The translations under genes and the position numbers were made by a program. A stretch of 21,492 nucleotides of DNA from a virus, in the IMG/VR virus record IMGVR_UViG_3300036985_004030, positions 1 to 21,492 of that record; one strand, 5' to 3'. This document shows, one piece after another, positions 7,521-20,246 of this stretch. Position 1 is the stretch's first letter. Each line of letters opens with the position of its first letter. The notes below the pieces were generated by a model. It saw only the letters and a program-made list of their open reading frames with translations, was not told the DNA's origin and did no database searches.

Positions 7521-7832
7521 ATGATACCAAACGAAAACAAAATGAAGCGACAATTTTATGTGACATTGATCTTCTTGACAATCGCGCTTGCCGTTATTTC
7601 ATTGGCTTCTGGCTGTAAAAAAGAACAACCATCATGCGGAACGTGCGAATATATTGAACACTATTCACACAATGATTCAACATTCAGAATCTCTGGAACA
7701 ACATTCTGTGATGAAGATTATGAACGCATAAAAAATGAACAACACTTCTATTCAGACACAATTGGTGCAAACGAATTTGGAATTGGCGGTGTTCACACAG
7801 ATATTCATTCACAATTTAATTGTTCAAAATAA
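7521..7832 (+). CDS. Small lipoprotein encoded in the tail operon (103 aa)
   Basis: The protein has a lipoprotein signal peptide: a short charged start, a hydrophobic core at about residues 12-28 (FYVTLIFLTIALAVISL) and a lipobox-like ASGC with Cys32 as the predicted lipidated residue. The mature part of about 70 residues has four more cysteines (C39, C42, C63, C101), including a CGTC pair, so disulfide bonding in the periplasm or at the outer membrane is likely. Translation could also start at Met8 (ATG 7542), giving a neater signal peptide. It lies between the large tail protein and the tape measure and overlaps the next ATG by one base. Small phage lipoproteins are known from superinfection exclusion and lysis; which applies here is not shown. 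Confidence 0.75.
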   Translation: MIPNENKMKRQFYVTLIFLTIALAVISLASGCKKEQPSCGTCEYIEHYSHNDSTFRISGTTFCDEDYERIKNEQHFYSDTIGANEFGIGGVHTDIHSQFNCSK

Positions 7833-10585: not shown

Positions 10586-10791
10586 TCTTAAAAGAAATCT
10601 GGAATGGATGGAAGAATGTCTTCTTTGAAAATGAAGCCTCTGAAAAGTTGGCAAATGACAGAATAAAAATTTGCAACACATGTCCAACAAAAGGAAAGTT
10701 TGTGTGTAAAAAAAGCAAAGGTGGTTGCGGTTGTCCAATTGTATCTTTGATTCGTTCAATAGATTCTAAATGTAAAAAGGGCAAATGGTGA
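10582..10791 (+). CDS. Cys-rich zinc-binding-like miniprotein (69 aa)
   Basis: Six cysteines are arranged as C31-x2-C34, C42, C49-x-C51 and C64, with the ending DSKCKKGKW. The CNTCP...C...GGCGCPI...R...KC..GKW pattern resembles small proteins of Bacteroidota phages grouped, as far as I recall, under DUF6171; a profile search would settle this. The cysteines could hold one zinc ion with extras. The N-terminal helix (residues 1-28) is amphipathic. It overlaps the upstream HTH gene by four bases and the next glycosyltransferase by seven, so it belongs to the same transcript. Its function is unknown. Confidence 0.65.
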   Translation: MILKEIWNGWKNVFFENEASEKLANDRIKICNTCPTKGKFVCKKSKGGCGCPIVSLIRSIDSKCKKGKW

Positions 10792-11432
10792 AAATAGGTG
10801 TACTAATACCAGACAAAGGTGACAGAGAGCTTTTTCTGAATCACTGCATTGATATGATGGAAAGACAAAGCATTGCGCCAGATGTTATTCTTATTGTAAA
10901 TGAAGACAGCGGAATTGCTGGCTGTGATATTACATGGCGCTACAAGAAAGGGTTCAAGAAAATATTTGACCAGTATGAATGTGACGTTTGTTTCTTGATT
11001 GAAAATGATGACTGGTATAAAAACAACTACATTGAAAAGATGCTTGAAGCATGGGTGAAGGCTGGACAACCAGAACTTTTTGGAATTGAAACGTCTGTGT
11101 ATTATCATATTGGAATAAAGAAATACAAGAAGTTGATTCATCCAAAACGTGCCAGCGCATTTTGCACAATGGTGACAAAGGAAGTTCTTGACTATGCTTT
11201 TTGCGCCGACAATGAAGCTTTTTTTGACATACATTTGTGGAAATCTTCAATGACAAAAGCGGTCTTCATTCCGGATCAAGAATTGTGCATTGGGGTAAAA
11301 CATGGAATTGGTTCTTGTGGTGGTAAAGGTCATCTTGAATCTTTTCCGTATGATAAAGATGACAAAGATTCTGAATACTTAAAAAAAATAATTGACACAA
11401 AAAGCTTCAATTTTTATGGAAAACAAATTTAG
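10785..11432 (+). CDS. Glycosyltransferase-like protein, GT-A fold (215 aa)
   Basis: The fold is suggested by an N-terminal strand (KIGVLIPDKGDR, 3-14), the segment MMERQSIAPDVILIVNEDSG (24-43) and an acidic ENDDWY at 73-78, which fits the metal- and nucleotide-sugar-binding DxD-type motif of family-2-like enzymes. After it come WYKNNYIEKMLEAW and a His/Gly-rich GVKHGIGS near 170-177. It is shorter than classical GT2 enzymes but close to phage-encoded ones. The start ATG lies seven bases inside the preceding gene (ATGGTGA). A GTG three bases later is an alternative. Donor and acceptor cannot be read from the sequence. It is the first of several sugar-related genes here. Confidence 0.65.
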   Translation: MVKIGVLIPDKGDRELFLNHCIDMMERQSIAPDVILIVNEDSGIAGCDITWRYKKGFKKIFDQYECDVCFLIENDDWYKNNYIEKMLEAWVKAGQPELFGIETSVYYHIGIKKYKKLIHPKRASAFCTMVTKEVLDYAFCADNEAFFDIHLWKSSMTKAVFIPDQELCIGVKHGIGSCGGKGHLESFPYDKDDKDSEYLKKIIDTKSFNFYGKQI

Positions 11433-11511
11433 AAATATAAGAACCGGGCTTCTGATATGCTTGTCAGTTTCCGCTTTGTTTTGGGGACTTATTATCTGGC
11501 TATTATGGTAA
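11416..11511 (+). CDS. Single-pass membrane miniprotein (31 aa)
   Basis: A 31-codon frame runs from ATG 11416 to TAA 11511. It encodes a basic start (MENKFRNIRT) followed by about 20 hydrophobic residues (LLICLSVSALFWGLIIW), ending LLW. This is a textbook one-pass membrane peptide with a positive N-terminus, so the N-terminus is probably cytoplasmic. It overlaps the end of the preceding glycosyltransferase by 17 bases and the ATG of the next one by seven (ATGGTAA), the same coupling style as its neighbours. It fills the 72-base space between the two enzymes that otherwise appears empty. It might anchor an enzyme, act at the membrane or be a cryptic toxin or holin-like peptide; none of these is shown. 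Confidence 0.55.
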   Translation: MENKFRNIRTGLLICLSVSALFWGLIIWLLW

Positions 11512-12251
11512 AATTTTTGATTGTTGCTTCTGGTTATAACTGCAAGCAATATGTGCTTCCATGTTTTCAAAGCTTATTGCTTCAAACATACAGAAATTTT
11601 GATGCTGTCTTGATCAGTGATGGAAGCATTGACAGAACTTCAGAAGAATTGAAACGCTTTTCTGGAAAAGATGGAAGAATCATTTGTGAATCCTTTCCAC
11701 AAAACATTGGCGCAACAAAAAGAAGATTTGATGCAATAAGAAAATACGCAAAAGAACCAAATGTTGTTGTTGTTTTTCTTGGACTTGATGACAGACTTTT
11801 GCCGAATGCACTGGAAGTGATTGCAAAGAAGTATGATGAAGGAATGTGGATGACTTACGGAAATTGGATCAATCAAAAAGGTGTCGGACTTCCAGAAGAC
11901 TTTGAACTTGACTTTGATGAAGAAACGCACGCTTCAAGAAATTACAGACGTGTGCGATATAGATCAACCGCACCAAACACATTCAAAAGATTCTTGTTTG
12001 ATCAGATTCCAGAAGCTGACTTCAAGATCAATGGCGCATGGATAAACACAACAACTGAATCAGAAGTCATGTTCAGTTGCTTGGAAATGTGCGGAAAAAA
12101 CAGAATTGGTGTGATCAAAGAACCTATCTATGTGTACAATGAAAACTTGCCAAACGGAAGCTTGCGAAGACTTGGTTCAACATACAAGCGGAACATTTAC
12201 AACATAGTAATTGCAAGACCGAAGAAAAATTTGTTTAAATTAGCAGAATGA
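11505..12251 (+). CDS. Family-2-like glycosyltransferase (248 aa)
   Basis: GT2-type features are clear. The N-terminal strand KFLIVASGYNCKQYVLPC is followed by FQSLLLQTYRNFDAVLISDGSIDRT (residues 21-45), with the classic DGS.D.T nucleotide-binding motif. GLDDRLLPNAL (93-103) supplies the DxD-type acidic pair. The C-terminal part is of mixed type and ends basic. A longer frame opens at 11457, but its first 16 residues lie over the membrane miniprotein. ATG 11505 gives the normal start of the fold (MVKFLIVASGYN) and overlaps the miniprotein stop. The stop overlaps the next gene by four bases. It probably transfers a sugar from a nucleotide donor; the acceptor is unknown. Confidence 0.82.
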   Translation: MVKFLIVASGYNCKQYVLPCFQSLLLQTYRNFDAVLISDGSIDRTSEELKRFSGKDGRIICESFPQNIGATKRRFDAIRKYAKEPNVVVVFLGLDDRLLPNALEVIAKKYDEGMWMTYGNWINQKGVGLPEDFELDFDEETHASRNYRRVRYRSTAPNTFKRFLFDQIPEADFKINGAWINTTTESEVMFSCLEMCGKNRIGVIKEPIYVYNENLPNGSLRRLGSTYKRNIYNIVIARPKKNLFKLAE

Positions 12252-13153
12252 AAGTTTTAAACATCTGTGTTGATGACTATGCAAATTTCTCACATGACAA
12301 TGCGAATGCTTTGCGTTCTGTTGGGGTGCATTGTGTTGACGTTAAACTTCAGCCACATGTGTTCAACTACAAAACAGAAAGCACACTTGCGAATGAATCC
12401 ATCTTGAAAGAACTAATTGCCGAAGCTGAACTTGTTCAGATATTTCATTCAGATAGTTCTTTGATAAAGTATTGTTCCGGAAAAAGACTTGTTGTGTATC
12501 ATACCGGGACACGTTACAGACAGAACCATCAAAAGTTCAATGCGCTTTTCAATCCGCATGTGGAAAAATCATTTGTTGCGCTTGGTGAATTTTACGGACT
12601 TGGTGCAAAGAATGAACAATATATTGTTGGCGCTACAAAGGTGCATGGACAAAAGCCATTGCACTTCATTCATCCTTTGCGCTTTGCTCACTTTCCTTCA
12701 AATCCAGAAGTGAAAGGAACGCAATCAATTTTGAATGCGGTGGAATCAATCAATCACAAAAACTTCCGTTTTGAATTTTCGCTTGACAAGGTTTCACATG
12801 ATCAACAGATTTCAAGAATGAACATGTGTGATGTTTACATTGAAATGAATTCAACACATCAAGGTGGCAAACCTTATGGAAGTTGGGGAATCACAACACT
12901 GGAAGCAACGTCACTTGGAAAAATAGTCATCACGAATCACACAACACTTGATGTGTATGAAAAGACTTATGGAATCACACCACCACTTGTGTTGATTGAA
13001 AAGCATGGAAGCATTGAAGCTTGTATCAACAATCTTCTGTCATTGACAGAATCACAAATACATCTATTAAAAAAACAATCCTTCGAATGGCTGGAAAAGT
13101 TTCATTCTTTTGAAGCAACTGGATCCAAACTAAAACAAATGTTATCTTTATGA
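12248..13153 (+). CDS. GT-B-fold glycosyltransferase (GT4-like, 301 aa)
   Basis: The protein has the two-domain look of GT-B enzymes. The N-terminal domain has MKVLNICVDDYANFSHD and the loop YHTGTRYR (84-91). The C-terminal domain has SNPEVKGTQSIL (151-162) and a donor-site region KPYGSWGITTLEATSLGKIVIT (208-229), equivalent to the 'E..ACG.PVI' motif of GT4 enzymes. It is somewhat shorter than typical members (about 350-400 aa), with a compact N-terminal domain. It overlaps both neighbours by four bases. It probably works with the adjacent GT-A enzymes on one glycan; the substrate is not identifiable. Confidence 0.7.
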   Translation: MKVLNICVDDYANFSHDNANALRSVGVHCVDVKLQPHVFNYKTESTLANESILKELIAEAELVQIFHSDSSLIKYCSGKRLVVYHTGTRYRQNHQKFNALFNPHVEKSFVALGEFYGLGAKNEQYIVGATKVHGQKPLHFIHPLRFAHFPSNPEVKGTQSILNAVESINHKNFRFEFSLDKVSHDQQISRMNMCDVYIEMNSTHQGGKPYGSWGITTLEATSLGKIVITNHTTLDVYEKTYGITPPLVLIEKHGSIEACINNLLSLTESQIHLLKKQSFEWLEKFHSFEATGSKLKQMLSL

Positions 13154-13668
13154 GTTACGCGGAAAAGCTTCAGCAATTCAACAGCACTGCAAAATACATG
13201 TCAGAACTTGTGTTTCTTCAGCGCTTAATCGGAAATGAACAAAAGGTCATCATGGATTTTGGTTGTGGAATAAACACAGCGCTGAAATTCTTGAACACAA
13301 GAACTTCTTGTGTCTGTCTTGGATATGATAAAAACAAATATCTTCAGCATTTTGACTATTGTTCACCGCATGAACATGTGAACATTGTGTACTTCATGCA
13401 CTCAATTGCACACATTGAAAACATTGAATCTGTGTTGATGTCACTGAACACCAAAACAATCATTGTGATCACACCAAACAAATCATGGATTGATGAAAAC
13501 AAAAATGACTTTTACAAACCAGATCATTCTGTCATAAAGCATTTCACGCAAGATTCATTGATTGAACTTGTTGAAGCTTCCGGATATGCTGTTGCTGAAT
13601 CTGGTCAATTCGGAAAATGTATCAACAACAAGAATGAAAGAATCTTTTTAATAGCACATAAAAAATGA
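13150..13668 (+). CDS. Class I SAM-dependent methyltransferase (172 aa)
   Basis: Motif I of the SAM-binding Rossmann fold is visible as VIMDFGCGIN (residues 33-42), followed by an acidic motif II at GYD (58-60), YFMHSIAHIENIESVL (81-96) in the position of motif IV/post-II, and TPNKSWID in the next strand. Near the C-terminus, HFTQDSLIELVEASGYAV is the helix-strand often seen in sugar or small-molecule methyltransferases. It is short, with no target-recognition domain of DNA methyltransferases and no N/DPPY motif, which argues against ordinary DNA methylation. Four-base overlaps on both sides place it within the glycosylation cluster, so O-methylation of a sugar is the simplest idea. Confidence 0.75.
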   Translation: MSYAEKLQQFNSTAKYMSELVFLQRLIGNEQKVIMDFGCGINTALKFLNTRTSCVCLGYDKNKYLQHFDYCSPHEHVNIVYFMHSIAHIENIESVLMSLNTKTIIVITPNKSWIDENKNDFYKPDHSVIKHFTQDSLIELVEASGYAVAESGQFGKCINNKNERIFLIAHKK

Positions 13669-14441
13669 AGCTTGGTTGCATTTATACAATTTTTAATGGT
13701 ATTGAACTATTAAAAAAATCAATGAAACAAATCATTGATGAAGTTGATGTTGTTGTCTTGGTGTTTCAAGACGTTTCAAATCGTGGACAAAAAGATGAAC
13801 ATGTCAGATTCAAGATTGCTGAAATTGTCCAGCATCATTTCACCAAAAAAGAAATGGACAAAATTCACATCATTCAGTTTGTTCCGAATCTTGGAATTGA
13901 CACAAAGACAAATGAACTGAACAAACACAATCTTGGATTGAAATTCTTGAAGTCGCAAGATTGCACACACTTCATGCTGTCGGCAACTGATCACTATTAT
14001 CACAAAGAAGAATTTAAAAGCGCAAAACAGAAAGCGCTTGAAGGAAACTTTGATGTCACACTGACTTCAATGTTCACATACTACAAAGAACCAACATGGC
14101 AAATTGAACCAATTGAATCATACTACATGCCATTTGTTTGCAAGATTCACAGATCAACAGAATATGTGAAAAAGAAATGGATGTATCTTGTTGATCCTTC
14201 AGTCAGAATCAACACAGATTCTTCAATGTATTTATTTAAACAAGAAGAAATCATGTTGCACCATTATAGCATGATTCGTGAAGACATTGAAAACAAGTTC
14301 AACAATTCAGCTTCTTCTGTGCGATGGGGTGATAAAGCAAAAGTGTATCTTGATGAATACAACAACGCAACACTTGAAAGTAAACTTGAATATTTTGGTG
14401 GACGTGGATTGAAAGTTGTTCCGAATTACTTCAAGATTTGA
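13665..14441 (+). CDS. Glycosyltransferase-like protein, GT-A type (258 aa)
   Basis: The N-terminus MKLGCIYTIFNGIELLKKSM resembles the start of GT2-like proteins with an opening strand and helix. FMLSATDHYY at 103-112 stands where the DxD motif is expected, but with a D-H form. The C-terminal EEIMLHHYSMIREDIENK (194-211) resembles a conserved HHYS..R.DI motif found in phage and bacterial sugar transferases. Length is normal for a small GT-A enzyme. Its 3' end converges with, and overlaps by 16 bases, the minus-strand zinc-ribbon gene; no terminator is visible there. Substrate unknown; family assignment tentative. Confidence 0.6.
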   Translation: MKLGCIYTIFNGIELLKKSMKQIIDEVDVVVLVFQDVSNRGQKDEHVRFKIAEIVQHHFTKKEMDKIHIIQFVPNLGIDTKTNELNKHNLGLKFLKSQDCTHFMLSATDHYYHKEEFKSAKQKALEGNFDVTLTSMFTYYKEPTWQIEPIESYYMPFVCKIHRSTEYVKKKWMYLVDPSVRINTDSSMYLFKQEEIMLHHYSMIREDIENKFNNSASSVRWGDKAKVYLDEYNNATLESKLEYFGGRGLKVVPNYFKI

Positions 14442-14608: not shown

Positions 14609-15136
14609 TTAAAAGCTTGGAATGAATAAAGACAACATGCTTTCTTTTGTGACAGACAACTTGACGTCCCTTTCTGAAAGCAATGCGTGAAGACTTTTGA
14701 AGTCATCCATTGCGCGTTTGAATGATTGTCCAGTGAAGTTTGGGTGTGAAGTAAAGTCAGCGCCAAACAAACGAATTTCTTTTGCACCTAATTTGAAAGC
14801 CATCACACATGCAACAAACGCGGAATTGTTTGAATATGAAACAAGATCTTTGTTGTCAAACATCTTCATGTTGCTTCTTCCAGGTGCAAGCCTTATTTTT
14901 TGATAGCTGTCATGATTCTTCCATTCATCAAATGGTGTGAAGAATTTCTTGCACCATGAATTTTCTATTGTGTGAAGTCTTTCTTTTGTGAAACAAGCCG
15001 GAAGGTCAACACAAACAAGATAGTCAACCGGTGTGTCTGGAAAGAACTTGTTGATGTCATTCACACCAATGGTTGTGTTTTCACAAACTTCATATCTGTG
15101 AATACTATCACCCAAACAAAGCACATCAATTTTCAT
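14609..15136 (-). CDS. Glycosyltransferase-like protein, DUF115/MptE-type (175 aa)
   Basis: The only sizeable minus-strand gene. It starts LCLGDSIHRYE (6-16), continues with IGVNDINKFFP (23-33) and YLVCVDLP (39-46), and later NNSAFVACVMAFKLGAKEIR then LFGADF (103-128). These GDS, GVN, D and 'A...LGAKEI.L.G.DF' blocks are typical of the DUF115/MptE-like and sialyltransferase-like group. A TTG start at 15151 would add five residues, but ATG 15136 gives a natural MKIDVLCLGDS beginning. At 175 residues it is short for the group. A consensus-like promoter lies directly upstream. It is tied to the zinc-ribbon gene and adjoins the sugar-gene cluster. Confidence 0.5.
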   Translation of the reverse strand: MKIDVLCLGDSIHRYEVCENTTIGVNDINKFFPDTPVDYLVCVDLPACFTKERLHTIENSWCKKFFTPFDEWKNHDSYQKIRLAPGRSNMKMFDNKDLVSYSNNSAFVACVMAFKLGAKEIRLFGADFTSHPNFTGQSFKRAMDDFKSLHALLSERDVKLSVTKESMLSLFIPSF

Positions 15137-15142
15137 TTGGCA

Positions 15143-15170
15143 ATTATACAAAAAAAAAGCAATCTGTCAA
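15143..15170 (-). promoter_or_regulatory. Sigma70-like promoter for the minus-strand pair
   Basis: Reading leftward, TTGACA lies at 15170-15165 and TATAAT at 15148-15143, with a 16-base spacer that is mainly T. Both hexamers match the sigma70 consensus exactly. The -10 box ends only six bases before ATG 15136, so the transcript would be leaderless or nearly so. An exact match to both boxes upstream of the one inverted operon is unlikely to be accidental, although the AT-rich setting and the different promoter consensus of Bacteroidota temper this. Confidence 0.55.
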
Positions 15171-15215: not shown

Positions 15216-16331
15216 ATGAAAAAAGTTCACTTTTATCTTTATGGCGCAATTGCAAATGAACCGGGTTCATTTGCACAAGAATTTGGAATCATTTCAGCAA
15301 AACAAGTTGCTGACTTCATTCATGCAAATTCTGGTGCTGAAGAATTAGTTGTTCATATCAATTCACCAGGCGGTGACGTTCATGAAGGGTTTGCAATCCA
15401 TGACATCCTTTCCACATCTGGAAAGAAGATCACAACAATCATTGAAGGAATGTGTGCATCAATTGCAACAATTGTTGCACTTGCTGGATCAACACGCGAA
15501 ATGACAGAACATTCAACATTCTTCATTCATAATGCTTTTGGTGGCGCAATGGGTGATGCTGAAGAATTGCAGAAATACACCAACGCTGTGAAAGAAGCAA
15601 CTGACAAAATCATTGACTTCTATGTTTCAAAAACTGGCGCTGAACGTGAAGCAATTTCAGCAATGATGTCAAACGAAACATCAATGGTTGCTGAAGAAGC
15701 AAAACGTCTTGGATTCATCACAGACATAAAAGTTCCGGTGACTGCAAAGATTCTTTCATTCACATCAATTCAAAAATCAAATAACAATTTTATAACAAAA
15801 GAAGACATGAAAAAAGAAAATCAAACACTTTTGGCTTCAATCAAAAATTTGCTTGGAATCAAAAATGAAGAAGTAATTGTTGCAATGCTTGACGTTGAAA
15901 CTGACAAAGGAACACTTCATGTTGAAAAGCCAAAAGTTGAAGGAATCATTTCAGTTGATGACGTTTGCACCATTGATGGCGCACCGGCAACTGAAGGTGA
16001 ATATACAACCAATGATGGCACAATTTACGCAATTGATGCTTCTGGAAAAGTCACAGCTGTGACAATCGAAGAAGAAGAAAACAAAGATTCTGAAGAAGTG
16101 ACTGCATTGAAAGCTTCATTGAAAGCATCTGAAGATGCACTTGAAGCAATGAAAGCTGAAAAGGAATCATTCGAAAATTCAATGACAATTGAATTGACAA
16201 ACATCAAGAAACAAATCACAAGCAACTACACACCGCCAAAAGACAAGAAGCAATTCAACAAGGGTGCTGTCTTGAATGAAGATCCGGCTGTTGCTTTGAG
16301 AGAAAGAAAAGAATCATATAATAAAAAGTAA
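15216..16331 (+). CDS. Prohead protease (ClpP-type) fused to a scaffold-like region (371 aa)
   Basis: This is the head-maturation protease. Residues 1-185 form a ClpP/S14 fold: VVHINSPGGDVHEGFAIHD (45-63), with the NSPGG motif at 49-53, catalytic Ser82 in GMCASIATI and His105 in FFIHNAFGG. The third residue is likely near E154 (ETSMVAEEAKRLGFI), since ClpP carries Asp or Glu there. Residues 186-371 are a scaffold-like extension: a Gly/Asp-rich beta domain (VCTIDGAPATEGEYTTNDGT, 250-269), then Glu/Lys coiled coil (about 285-335) and a basic tail. Such fusions of protease and scaffold are known in phage heads. It is followed by the capsid gene after 46 A-rich bases. A protease role is clear; the scaffold role is inferred. 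Confidence 0.88.
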   Translation: MKKVHFYLYGAIANEPGSFAQEFGIISAKQVADFIHANSGAEELVVHINSPGGDVHEGFAIHDILSTSGKKITTIIEGMCASIATIVALAGSTREMTEHSTFFIHNAFGGAMGDAEELQKYTNAVKEATDKIIDFYVSKTGAEREAISAMMSNETSMVAEEAKRLGFITDIKVPVTAKILSFTSIQKSNNNFITKEDMKKENQTLLASIKNLLGIKNEEVIVAMLDVETDKGTLHVEKPKVEGIISVDDVCTIDGAPATEGEYTTNDGTIYAIDASGKVTAVTIEEEENKDSEEVTALKASLKASEDALEAMKAEKESFENSMTIELTNIKKQITSNYTPPKDKKQFNKGAVLNEDPAVALRERKESYNKK

Positions 16332-16377
16332 TTAATAAAAACAAAAAACAATAAGTAAACAAAAAACAAATAAGAAG

Positions 16378-17598
16378 ATGAAAAAGTTTCCATTCAAATC
16401 AATTTTAGCCTTAACACTTGTATGTGTTGTGATGGCTTTACTACAAGTCGCAAATTTCATTCCAGCGGTTGTTGGTTTGAGTTTAGTTGCTTTCGTTATT
16501 CCGCAAACTGGTCTTGCAATGGGGGTTTTGAATCCAGCGCAATTGACATGGAATGGTAAGGAAATAATGGCTTTAAATGAAGCTATCTTTGAAAGCATTT
16601 TTGTGAATCCAGCTTTGACAGATGTTCACACAATTGTCACTGGAATTGTTGCCAAACAACAAATTGCATATTTGGGTTTGCTTGGATTGGTAGGAAAAAA
16701 AGGTGTTGGATGTGATCCAGCAAGTGACACAGCAACAGCAACGATGACTGAAAAATTCTGGCTTCCAGAATCTATTCAAATGCGTCTTGAAGAATGCTGG
16801 ACAACTTACAATGCAAGTTTCTTTGTATGGTCACAAAATAAAGGAATCAAACGTGCTGACTTAACAAATACTGACGTGATGGCTTTCATTGAAGAACGCG
16901 CTGGAACTGGACTTGATGAAGCAAAATTGCGTCATGCTTGGTTTGGTGACACAGATGCTTCAACAACAACTGATTCACCAGCTGGTGTGATCACAGCTGG
17001 AACTGACTTGTCTTTCTTCAATGCAATTGATGGTTTCTTCAAACAAATGTATGCAATTGTTGCGGTTACACCGGGAACAAAAGCTTCAACCATCACAAAA
17101 AATTCTGGTGTGTCTTATGCTTTACAAGCTTTTGACGCAACAGATGTGACAAATAAGGTTGTTATGGGATACATGGCTGACATCTTAGATGAAGGCGACA
17201 CACGTTTGACTGATCGCGATGACAAAATGTTCTTAGTGACAAAATCGGTGTATGATCAATTGAAACGCGAATACAAATCTTATGGAAATGTTGCGGATTC
17301 ATTCATGATGAACATCAACGGAATTCCAACATTAACTTATGATGGTGTTCCAGTGATCAAGTTTTCTTTCTGGGATCGTATGATTCGCGCATACCAAAAC
17401 AATGGTGTTGTTTGGTATCAACCGCACAGAATCATTTTGACTACAAAAGCAAATCTTCAAATTGGTGTTGAATCAGAAGAAGCATTGCGTGAACTTGATG
17501 TTCATTATGACAAAGTAAGTAAAAACAACTATATTGATGCTACATTCTTGATGGATGCAAAGATTGTTGAAGACTACATGATTTCTGTTGCATACTAA
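16378..17598 (+). CDS. Major capsid protein (406 aa)
   Basis: The size, position after the protease and sequence style (E-loop-like and spine-helix stretches, e.g. FEEWF-type aromatic/acidic runs and LREYKSYGNVADSFM near 300) fit an HK97-fold major capsid protein. Its N-terminus is unusual: residues 1-50 are almost entirely hydrophobic (about 8-23 and 27-42), starting MKKFPFKS, with a Gly-rich boundary at TGLAMGV. This resembles a double membrane segment or signal peptide rather than a charged delta domain. It may be removed by the adjacent protease. The start ATG has an AATAAGAAG leader and an intrinsic terminator follows the stop. Confidence 0.78.
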   Translation: MKKFPFKSILALTLVCVVMALLQVANFIPAVVGLSLVAFVIPQTGLAMGVLNPAQLTWNGKEIMALNEAIFESIFVNPALTDVHTIVTGIVAKQQIAYLGLLGLVGKKGVGCDPASDTATATMTEKFWLPESIQMRLEECWTTYNASFFVWSQNKGIKRADLTNTDVMAFIEERAGTGLDEAKLRHAWFGDTDASTTTDSPAGVITAGTDLSFFNAIDGFFKQMYAIVAVTPGTKASTITKNSGVSYALQAFDATDVTNKVVMGYMADILDEGDTRLTDRDDKMFLVTKSVYDQLKREYKSYGNVADSFMMNINGIPTLTYDGVPVIKFSFWDRMIRAYQNNGVVWYQPHRIILTTKANLQIGVESEEALRELDVHYDKVSKNNYIDATFLMDAKIVEDYMISVAY

Positions 17599-17657: not shown

Positions 17658-18236
17658 ATGACACAAATATGTGGACTATTAGCTTCTGGAATTGGTGCGG
17701 ATTGCACAAATCCATTGCAAGCCGGAACGGAAGACACACTTGTTCTTTTAAACAGAACACAAATTGCAACATTGACAAAGAACATTTCAAATCCACAAGT
17801 GATTGAAGACATCATTCTTGAATCCGCTGGACTTGGTTATGTTTTTCAAGGATTGAACAATTCAATCGCACCAAAATCAATGATGGTCAAAGGAAGATAT
17901 TTCCGCAACTGGTCACATGAAATCAACTTCATTGCATTTGATGTTGCACCAACTGCAAAGCAAGTGATTGAAGACATGAAAGATGGTGACTTGACTGCAA
18001 TTGTTTACAACAAATACAAAGGTGCATCCGGAAATTCAGCATTTGAAATTTATGGTTTGTATGCTGGCTTGAAAGCTGAATTGATTGAACGTGATGTGAC
18101 AAACACAGAAACGCAAGGTGCTTTCAATATCACTTTAAAGACAGACAATGAACGCGGTCTTGAACCATATCAACCACAAACATTGTTCATTTCTGACTAT
18201 GCAACAACACTTTTGGTTGTTGAAGGTCTTGTGTAA
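17658..18236 (+). CDS. Probable major tail (tube) protein (192 aa)
   Basis: The starting motif TQICGLLASGIGADCTNPLQAGTED, strand-rich middle and the segment FEIYGLYAGLKAELIERDV (about 130-148) followed by GAFNITLKTDNE resemble structural proteins of Bacteroidota phages that may be tail-tube subunits. No enzymatic motif or signal peptide is seen. An A-rich leader (ATACAAAAAAAA) precedes the ATG. It is the only gene bracketed by two hairpin terminators, so it could form its own high-level transcript. A tube protein sitting between capsid and portal is unusual. A capsid decoration protein is an alternative. Confidence 0.5.
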   Translation: MTQICGLLASGIGADCTNPLQAGTEDTLVLLNRTQIATLTKNISNPQVIEDIILESAGLGYVFQGLNNSIAPKSMMVKGRYFRNWSHEINFIAFDVAPTAKQVIEDMKDGDLTAIVYNKYKGASGNSAFEIYGLYAGLKAELIERDVTNTETQGAFNITLKTDNERGLEPYQPQTLFISDYATTLLVVEGLV

Positions 18237-18881: not shown

Positions 18882-20246
18882 GTGAAGGCAACAGCAACAG
18901 AAGTTTCAAAAAGAATCACGATCAGCGAAAACAAAACTGAAGGGATTTTGAACTATGACTTTGACAACGCATATCCGCAAAGAATTGTGGACATTGTCAA
19001 CGCGTCTGGTGCTGGAACTTCATGTGTCAACATGAAAACACGTTTTCTTGTTGGTGGTGGAATGAAAGACTTGACATTCTACAAATCAAAGGTGAACAAA
19101 GAAGGAATGACAATTGACCAGCTTTTGAGAAAGATTGCTGTGAACATGTCATACTTGCCATTTGTAGCCTTGCAAATAAATTATAACGCACTTTTTGAAC
19201 CGGTTGAAGTCAATTATGTTCCCTTCACTTATGTAAGGTTAACAAACAAAACTGACAAAGAACATGCTTCAATGGTTGCCATCTATGATGATTGGCAAAA
19301 AATAGGAACAAAGAAAATTGACAAAAAGAAAATTGACTTTCTGAATTTCTACAATAGAAATCCAGAAGTCATTCAAGCTGAAGTTGATGCTGTTGGCGGT
19401 TGGGAATTTTACAAGGGACAAGTCTTCTTGTATTCGCCAGAAGGGTTTGAATATCCGCTTGCAACGTATGATTCAGTGCTTGAAGACATTCAGACTGACA
19501 GCAAAGCAAAGATCTTTAAATTCAGAAACATCACAACAAATTTCATGGCTTCGCACATGGTTGTGACAAACAAGTTTGAAGATGAAGGTGATCGCGATGA
19601 ATTTCATGCAAACTTGGAAACTTTTCAAGGTTCTGAAGATGCAATGAAACTTTTTCACATTGAAAAAGAAACGGATGAAGACACAATTGAATTGAAGAAA
19701 ATTGAAATTCAAGACGTTGAAAAGCTTTATGAATTCACAGAATCTTCAGTGCGTGAAAATATTATTTTATCATTCAATCTTCCACCGGTGTTGTTGCTTA
19801 GAAATGCCGGAAGCGCTTTTTCAAGCAACCAGATTTCAGAAGCGACTGCATTCTACAATGGTATAACAGCGGATGAACGTCTTGTGATTGAAGAAATCTT
19901 CAAGGAAATTTTCACCGGGTTTGCTGAAAACATAAACACTTCAAATGACTATTCAATCATACCTTTCAAAGCGCCAGTTTCAGAATCAGAACTTGGTGCT
20001 GAATACTTGAAGTATTTCACAACAGATGAAATTCGCGAATCAAAAGGATATGCAAAAGCTGAACAAGTTCAGATTGAATCAAAGCCATTGTTTGAAGTTC
20101 TTGGTGTCGGTGGATTGCAAGCAATCAATTCAATGCTTGCGGATCCTATATTGACAAGGGAACAAAAGCTTGCACAATGTACAAACATATACAACTTATC
20201 AATGGAAAAGGCTGTTGAATTAGTTGATGGAATAAAAACAACATAG
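18882..20246 (+). CDS. Portal protein (454 aa)
   Basis: The portal is the ring at the head vertex through which DNA enters. The length is typical. The recognisable part is SFNLPPVLLL then RNAGSAFSSNQISEATAFYN at about 297-326, the helix-loop that in many portals reads 'PP.LLG....S.N..EA...F'. Upstream, IDQLLRKIAVNMSY and VNYVPFTYVRL fit the crown/clip helices and strands. The start is GTG 18882 (preceded by AAAAG). No good ATG exists upstream after the previous stop, and downstream Met residues would remove conserved-looking sequence. The stop is directly followed by the connector ATG. Other head proteins nearby support the call. Confidence 0.78.
   Translation: MKATATEVSKRITISENKTEGILNYDFDNAYPQRIVDIVNASGAGTSCVNMKTRFLVGGGMKDLTFYKSKVNKEGMTIDQLLRKIAVNMSYLPFVALQINYNALFEPVEVNYVPFTYVRLTNKTDKEHASMVAIYDDWQKIGTKKIDKKKIDFLNFYNRNPEVIQAEVDAVGGWEFYKGQVFLYSPEGFEYPLATYDSVLEDIQTDSKAKIFKFRNITTNFMASHMVVTNKFEDEGDRDEFHANLETFQGSEDAMKLFHIEKETDEDTIELKKIEIQDVEKLYEFTESSVRENIILSFNLPPVLLLRNAGSAFSSNQISEATAFYNGITADERLVIEEIFKEIFTGFAENINTSNDYSIIPFKAPVSESELGAEYLKYFTTDEIRESKGYAKAEQVQIESKPLFEVLGVGGLQAINSMLADPILTREQKLAQCTNIYNLSMEKAVELVDGIKTT

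Follow-up and report, generated by a model that had tools for sequence, protein, structure and literature searches.

Head genes of the window and the N-terminus of the capsid protein

The window, as we call the whole 21,492-nucleotide stretch of viral DNA analysed here (record IMGVR_UViG_3300036985_004030), carries a head module in which protease, capsid, structural gene and portal follow in that order, with the terminase on the same contig. Its relevant features are these:

15216..16331, + strand: head maturation protease (ClpP type; PF00574, E 4.1e-29; phrog_94) fused to a coiled-coil-like, scaffold-like C-terminal half
16357..16377, + strand: A-rich stretch preceding ATG1, resembling the bases 5' of the start codons of many leaderless relatives
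16378-17598, + strand: capsid ORF, 406 aa, HK97-fold capsid protein
16378..16518, + strand: leader, residues 1-47; K2, K3 and K7, followed by some 40 residues without charge, most of them hydrophobic, up to a final TGLA; kept in the relatives L001 and L002
16519..16521, + strand: ATG48, probable relic of an ancestral start codon; relatives' starts lie at or near it; TTT in L001 and L002
16519..17598, + strand: remainder of the ORF with its stop, residues 48-406, the capsid domain of HK97 fold; matched by phrog_38780 from residue 52 to residue 406 (E 9.9e-40)
17658..18236, + strand: head gene following the capsid, 192 aa, of a virion structural type; matches are phrog_21217, of unknown function, and phrog_19979, a virion structural protein
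18882..20246, + strand: portal protein; phrog_11226, E 2.5e-68

The capsid body covers positions 8-360 of the 360 in the phrog_38780 profile. In a model of the whole protein, built from an alignment of 38 sequences, residues 59-406 adopt the HK97 fold and matched 343 PDB chains in Foldseek (E<=0.001), and VIA-align superposed the model on the capsid proteins of phiRSA1 (7oz4; Z 17.7, rmsd 4.0 over 281 residues) and HK97 (1ohg; Z 14.9, rmsd 3.4 over 248 residues). Residues 59-406 aligned to residues 117-380 of 1ohg, which places the leader where the removed N-terminal part of the HK97 protein would be; the first 49 residues of the model have pLDDT values below 50 (about 30). By its modelled fold and gene context the ORF is an HK97-fold major capsid protein, predicted to assemble into the head.

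The original prediction, made from the letters alone, concerned positions 16378-16530 (residues 1-51 of the 406) and described an MKK start followed by two hydrophobic stretches and a small-residue end. This description was accurate: K2, K3 and K7 are followed by hydrophobic stretches at about residues 9-24 and 27-41 and then by TGLA-MG. The comparison with a signal peptide also held, the segment having a basic n-region and a hydrophobic core like those of a Sec signal peptide and ending in a small-x-small pattern where the capsids of relatives begin; cleavage and export are putative. Among the 25 window ORFs chosen as main genes, the capsid ORF has the longest run free of D, E, K and R (53 residues from residue 8, that is residues 8-60, the next charged residue being K61; the next ORFs reach 44 and 39), the highest 40-residue Kyte-Doolittle mean (2.09, followed by the tape measure at 1.72) and the highest 19-residue mean (2.38, followed by a lipoprotein-like ORF at 2.34 and the tape measure at 2.28). 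The membrane hairpin that had also been proposed gained no support from a single AlphaFold prediction of residues 1-60 with 3 sequences only, which gave one low-confidence helix at 6-44 (mean pLDDT 62, pTM 0.29).

Other parts of the window also drew our attention. Amid the tail genes, positions 7521-7832 encode a 103-aa lipoprotein-like ORF with a hydrophobic start followed by LASGC and no Pfam match, for which a spanin or a superinfection-exclusion lipoprotein would be a guess. A glycan-type gene run at 10785-14441 separates the tail and head modules and includes a family 2 glycosyltransferase (11457-12251) and a methyltransferase (13150-13668), its other neighbours having no Pfam match above cut-off. 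Just before the head module, at 14609-15151, lies a 180-aa minus-strand ORF, opposite to the other main genes and with no Pfam match.

Distribution and translation of the leader

We collected relatives from IMG/VR (by capsid profiles, by the capsid of the relative L112 and by the protease), from phage records and from GTDB genomes. Together these yielded 135 distinct family capsid proteins with a readable 5' end, the window included (three sets of 116, 14 and 5), one of these entries being a truncated copy of another. The set of 116 derives from 166 loci including the window, 8 of which were dropped for lack of a readable 5' end, leaving 158 with some contigs present twice. The set of 14 comprises the complete family members found on examining 38 of 80 loci, the rest of these 38 having other next genes or none found; two partial members, L203 and L205, are leaderless and stand outside the count. 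Genome-contig searches for prophage relatives returned none at the first attempt and five (GTDB) at the second, all leaderless. For each protein we counted from the first ATG that follows the upstream stop, so that TTG and GTG starts fall outside the count.

Only four of the 135 proteins carry a leader: those of the window, L001, L002 and L112. The remaining 131 start at or near window residue 48 (some about 10 residues earlier) with neither leader nor delta domain, often with MALITPADLTFNG or MALIDVTDLTFNG; L009 (MAIITPAQ) and L010 (MGIFTTSQ) are examples. Hydropathy over 17 residues separated the two groups within the set of 116, the four leader proteins reaching at least 2.4 and the next best 1.4. 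The best values in the set of 14 were 1.53 (L201, at residue 49, inside the capsid domain) and 1.38. One capsid relative (L166:264-1337) has a first ATG that puts a short hydrophobic MKKIILL ahead of the common start; this extension may be minimal or due to chance. L008 was discarded as a relative, since its MGVLNPAQ match lies inside an apparent RNA-phage protein and was judged to be due to chance.

Searches for further leaders added little. A further viral search for closer kin returned L001-L003 only. Against 50,697 phage records, tblastn with residues 1-71 of the window capsid at E 10 returned 3 weak matches, which we judged unrelated, and nothing was returned for the L112 leader. The leaders matched nothing convincing in Pfam and PHROGs, the best being L001 to DUF4190 (E 0.0045, 17.1 bits against a cut-off of 35). 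The motif FIPAVVGL occurred in 9 IMG/VR stretches, the only capsid genes among them lying on the contigs of L001 and L002 (L080 and L082).

L001 and L002, 82% and 80% identical, both keep the leader, and their leader proteins are identical to each other. Between the window and L001, 36 base changes alter 19 of the 47 leader residues; no charged residue is gained or lost, and the alignment has no gap. When we placed 36 base changes at random in the leader (50,000 trials, with and without AT bias), an open frame free of charged residues at 9-47 survived in 391 trials (199 under AT bias), i.e. 0.8% and 0.4%, and an open frame that had acquired no new polar residue in 236 (65 under AT bias). We obtained dN/dS values of about 0.5 for the leader (0.257/0.509) and about 0.2 for the body (0.122/0.600), and the synonymous excess in the leader is weak and not significant (binomial P 0.09). 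Each single statistic is moderate; the leader is nevertheless more than chance. The DNA identity of L001 and L002 dips to 0.65 and 0.75 in two 60-base bins within the capsid gene (L001:3720-3840), against 0.83-1.0 elsewhere, while the leader is nearly identical, and recombination or a fast-changing surface patch is possible there.

The argument for translation rests on a missing start codon and not on the simulation. Codon 48 is TTT in L001 and L002, and neither has ATG, GTG or TTG at codons 38-63, so initiation must occur at codon 37 or earlier if a conserved part of the capsid domain is not to be lost; the leader is therefore translated in these two, at least in part. This, together with the open frame without gain of charge, the gapless alignment with L001 and the A-rich context of ATG1, makes it very improbable that ATG48 is the true start and that AT-rich DNA merely happens to leave the frame open before it, even though the start position in 131 of the 135 family proteins, the ATG retained there by the window and the non-significant synonymous excess would fit such a reading. 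The A-rich stretch probably marks a start of the Bacteroidota type. The original prediction had set homologues with a true start near residue 50 against the leader; 131 of the 135 literally start there, but the leader is not refuted by them, because L001 and L002 have no start codon at that place and the others simply lack the segment. Judged from the codons present, a second start at ATG48 could yield a leaderless form in the window phage, and a TTG at codon 56 could bypass the leader in L112.

Origin of the leaders, the junction and the neighbouring protease

On a tree of 76 representative capsid bodies, three of them leader-bearing, the leader label needs at least two gains or losses, two being forced by well-supported branches: the window pairs with L001 (100/100), and L112 pairs with the leaderless L011 (100/100), the bodies of the latter two being 69% identical. 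All leaders end in G-x-A followed by M or F near the start of relatives (TGLA-MG, TGIA-FG and NGYA-FD). Compared with shuffled leaders, those of the window and L112 resemble each other weakly (z 2.3-2.7 with the junction, 1.5-2.5 without it), so two separate acquisitions are possible, as is a single module that was exchanged or lost. From its position, ATG48 of the window looks like a relic of the old start.

The protease encoded next door consists of a ClpP domain, a small domain, a coiled-coil-like stretch and a basic tail, a layout common to leaderless relatives (16 aligned; scaffold part read from sequence), with Ser82 and His105 invariant in all 16. By comparison with ClpP, we take these two to be the catalytic residues. 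We considered the leader as the partner of a special protease and rejected this, the same protease-scaffold fusion being present in leaderless relatives. The proteases of L112 and L011 (L121 and L122) are 37 and 41% identical to that of the window, whereas those of L089, L090, L108 and L010 are 27-34% identical despite capsids nearer to the window's, and this mismatch suggests mosaic exchange of head genes. On the L112 contig, a small gene between protease and capsid (L121:3577-3975) has a signal-peptide-like start ending SQAQ, of the Bacteroidota Q-rule type; it had no match in the 50,697 phage records at E 0.01 and only a sub-threshold Pertactin match in Pfam.

The original prediction had contrasted the leader with the charged, coiled-coil delta domain usual in HK97-like capsids and suggested that the scaffold-like part of the protease could replace that domain. 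Residues 8-60 are indeed uncharged, and the contrast fits other Bacteroidota capsids: their genomes gave 18 PF05065 loci with 16 distinct proteins, of which L190 was dropped by eye as a false match; none of the other 15 has a strongly hydrophobic N-terminus (17-residue means up to 1.36), and most start with a charged stretch. No family relative examined, however, has a delta domain. Likewise, the coiled-coil-like half is present but, being common to leaderless relatives, it bears on why the family can be without a delta domain and not on why one clade has a leader. Replacement of the delta domain by the protease tail is thus reasonable for the whole family, as far as these sequences suggest, and no explanation of the leader.

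Possible roles of the leader and comparison with known systems

We favour, with a probability of about 0.45, the reading that the leader is a membrane-directing pro-segment, removed at the junction during head maturation. A hydrophobic pro-segment would have been added in front of a capsid protein ancestrally without one. It would bring newly made subunits of the shell, or the first capsomers, to the inner membrane of the host through a signal-recognition or YidC route and so concentrate them where the portal starts a head. Cleavage close to G-x-A, at about residue 47/48, would then release a mature subunit like that of leaderless relatives, the ClpP-type head protease encoded next door being the likeliest enzyme. 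Tethering to the membrane and removal by the fused protease had both been raised in the original prediction, and each would be a part of this reading. M or F, not Q, follows the junction, in contrast to the SQAQ of the gene beside the L112 capsid, which favours the phage protease over a host signal peptidase. Cutting would occur before or with shell closure, because the scaffold domain of HK97 faces the prohead interior and a leader held in a bilayer could not persist in a closed shell. Supporting a pro-segment, the leader is conserved in three contigs directly before the ancestral N-terminus, and leaders occur on two separate branches, each with a G-x-A junction and with a protease carrying Ser82 and His105 next door. 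Against it, only four sequences have a leader and 131 of 135 family capsids do without, so that a membrane step is not generally needed; in T4, moreover, the portal and not the capsid protein is the membrane link. The fuller account, in which removable leaders gather subunits on the inner membrane until freed by the head protease and were gained at least twice just before the old start codon of leaderless capsids, we hold more tentatively.

Rather unlikely, in our judgement, is that the leader acts inside the prohead, hydrophobic helices of adjacent subunits packing together as a greasy stand-in for a delta domain and being degraded with the scaffold. The HK97 scaffold domain does lie on the interior surface of the capsomers, as described in PMC10275583, and the window leader takes the place of the removed N-terminal part of HK97 (59-406 against 117-380 of 1ohg) and is predicted in isolation as one long helix; about 40 uncharged residues would, however, be poorly soluble, and a scaffold-like coiled coil is already provided by the protease with or without a leader. 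Removal of the leader is itself inferred, and ATG48 could give two forms in the window phage, which would suit a leader that persists in the virion or on a minority of the subunits, for instance for membrane contact at infection. We consider this improbable, as L001 and L002 are without an internal start and HK97-fold proteins have their N-termini at the shell or within it.

To about the same low degree we credit a genuine Sec signal peptide that signal peptidase I of the host would remove and that would take some capsid protein to the periplasm or to the outer face of the membrane. Its n-region, h-region and small residues at -3 and -1 would suit this role, as would the signal-peptide-like start, ending SQAQ, of the adjacent gene in the L112 phage; heads of tailed phages are nevertheless packaged in the cytoplasm, and the hydrophobic region of a signal peptide is usually shorter than that of the leader. 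At the presumed cut site, the residue after A is M48, F48 or F54 (window, L001 and L112), not the glutamine that follows the cut in Bacteroidota signal peptidase I substrates according to a passage of PMC10367356. If the favoured pro-segment is correct, the leader hints at an unusual way of starting a virus head, and its presence and absence in close relatives (L112 and L011) offers a natural comparison for what membrane contact adds to head assembly.

A ClpP-like protease with a scaffold-like tail is shared with Lambda/mEp460-type fusions, the 'putative protease/scaffold protein' of mEp460 being among the matches. To our knowledge, the capsid proteins of these phages have no leader. HK97 resembles the window capsid in the fold of the body and in having an N-terminal segment that, here, may be removed before maturity; its N-terminal domain acts as a scaffold, as PMC10275583 describes it, whereas the window leader is uncharged after K7 and a separate coiled coil resides on the protease. 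According to PMC9026906 and PMC9958956, T4 and SPN3US build their proheads on the inner membrane, and proteolysis precedes their release; a prohead that starts at the membrane and is freed by protease action is what we infer here; the T4 prohead is attached through the portal and YidC, while in the window phage a hydrophobic leader carried by the capsid protein would provide the attachment.

The only direct precedent that we found in the literature is PMC10367356, which states in a single sentence, SignalP 6.0 being among its annotation tools, that major capsid proteins of 'Nixviridae' prophages of Porphyromonas gingivalis have signal peptides. They and the window capsid are alike in belonging to Bacteroidota phages and in a signal-like N-terminus thought to be removed by the phage head protease, a likeness by description; tblastn of the window capsid against the 50,697 phage records matched 3, none named Porphyromonas. 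In the light of that sentence, our basic observation is a variant of something already in print, and what is added here is the pattern of gain or loss within one capsid family, a start codon that is probably a relic, a junction common to the leaders, and the occurrence of leader-bearing and leaderless proteins among close relatives.
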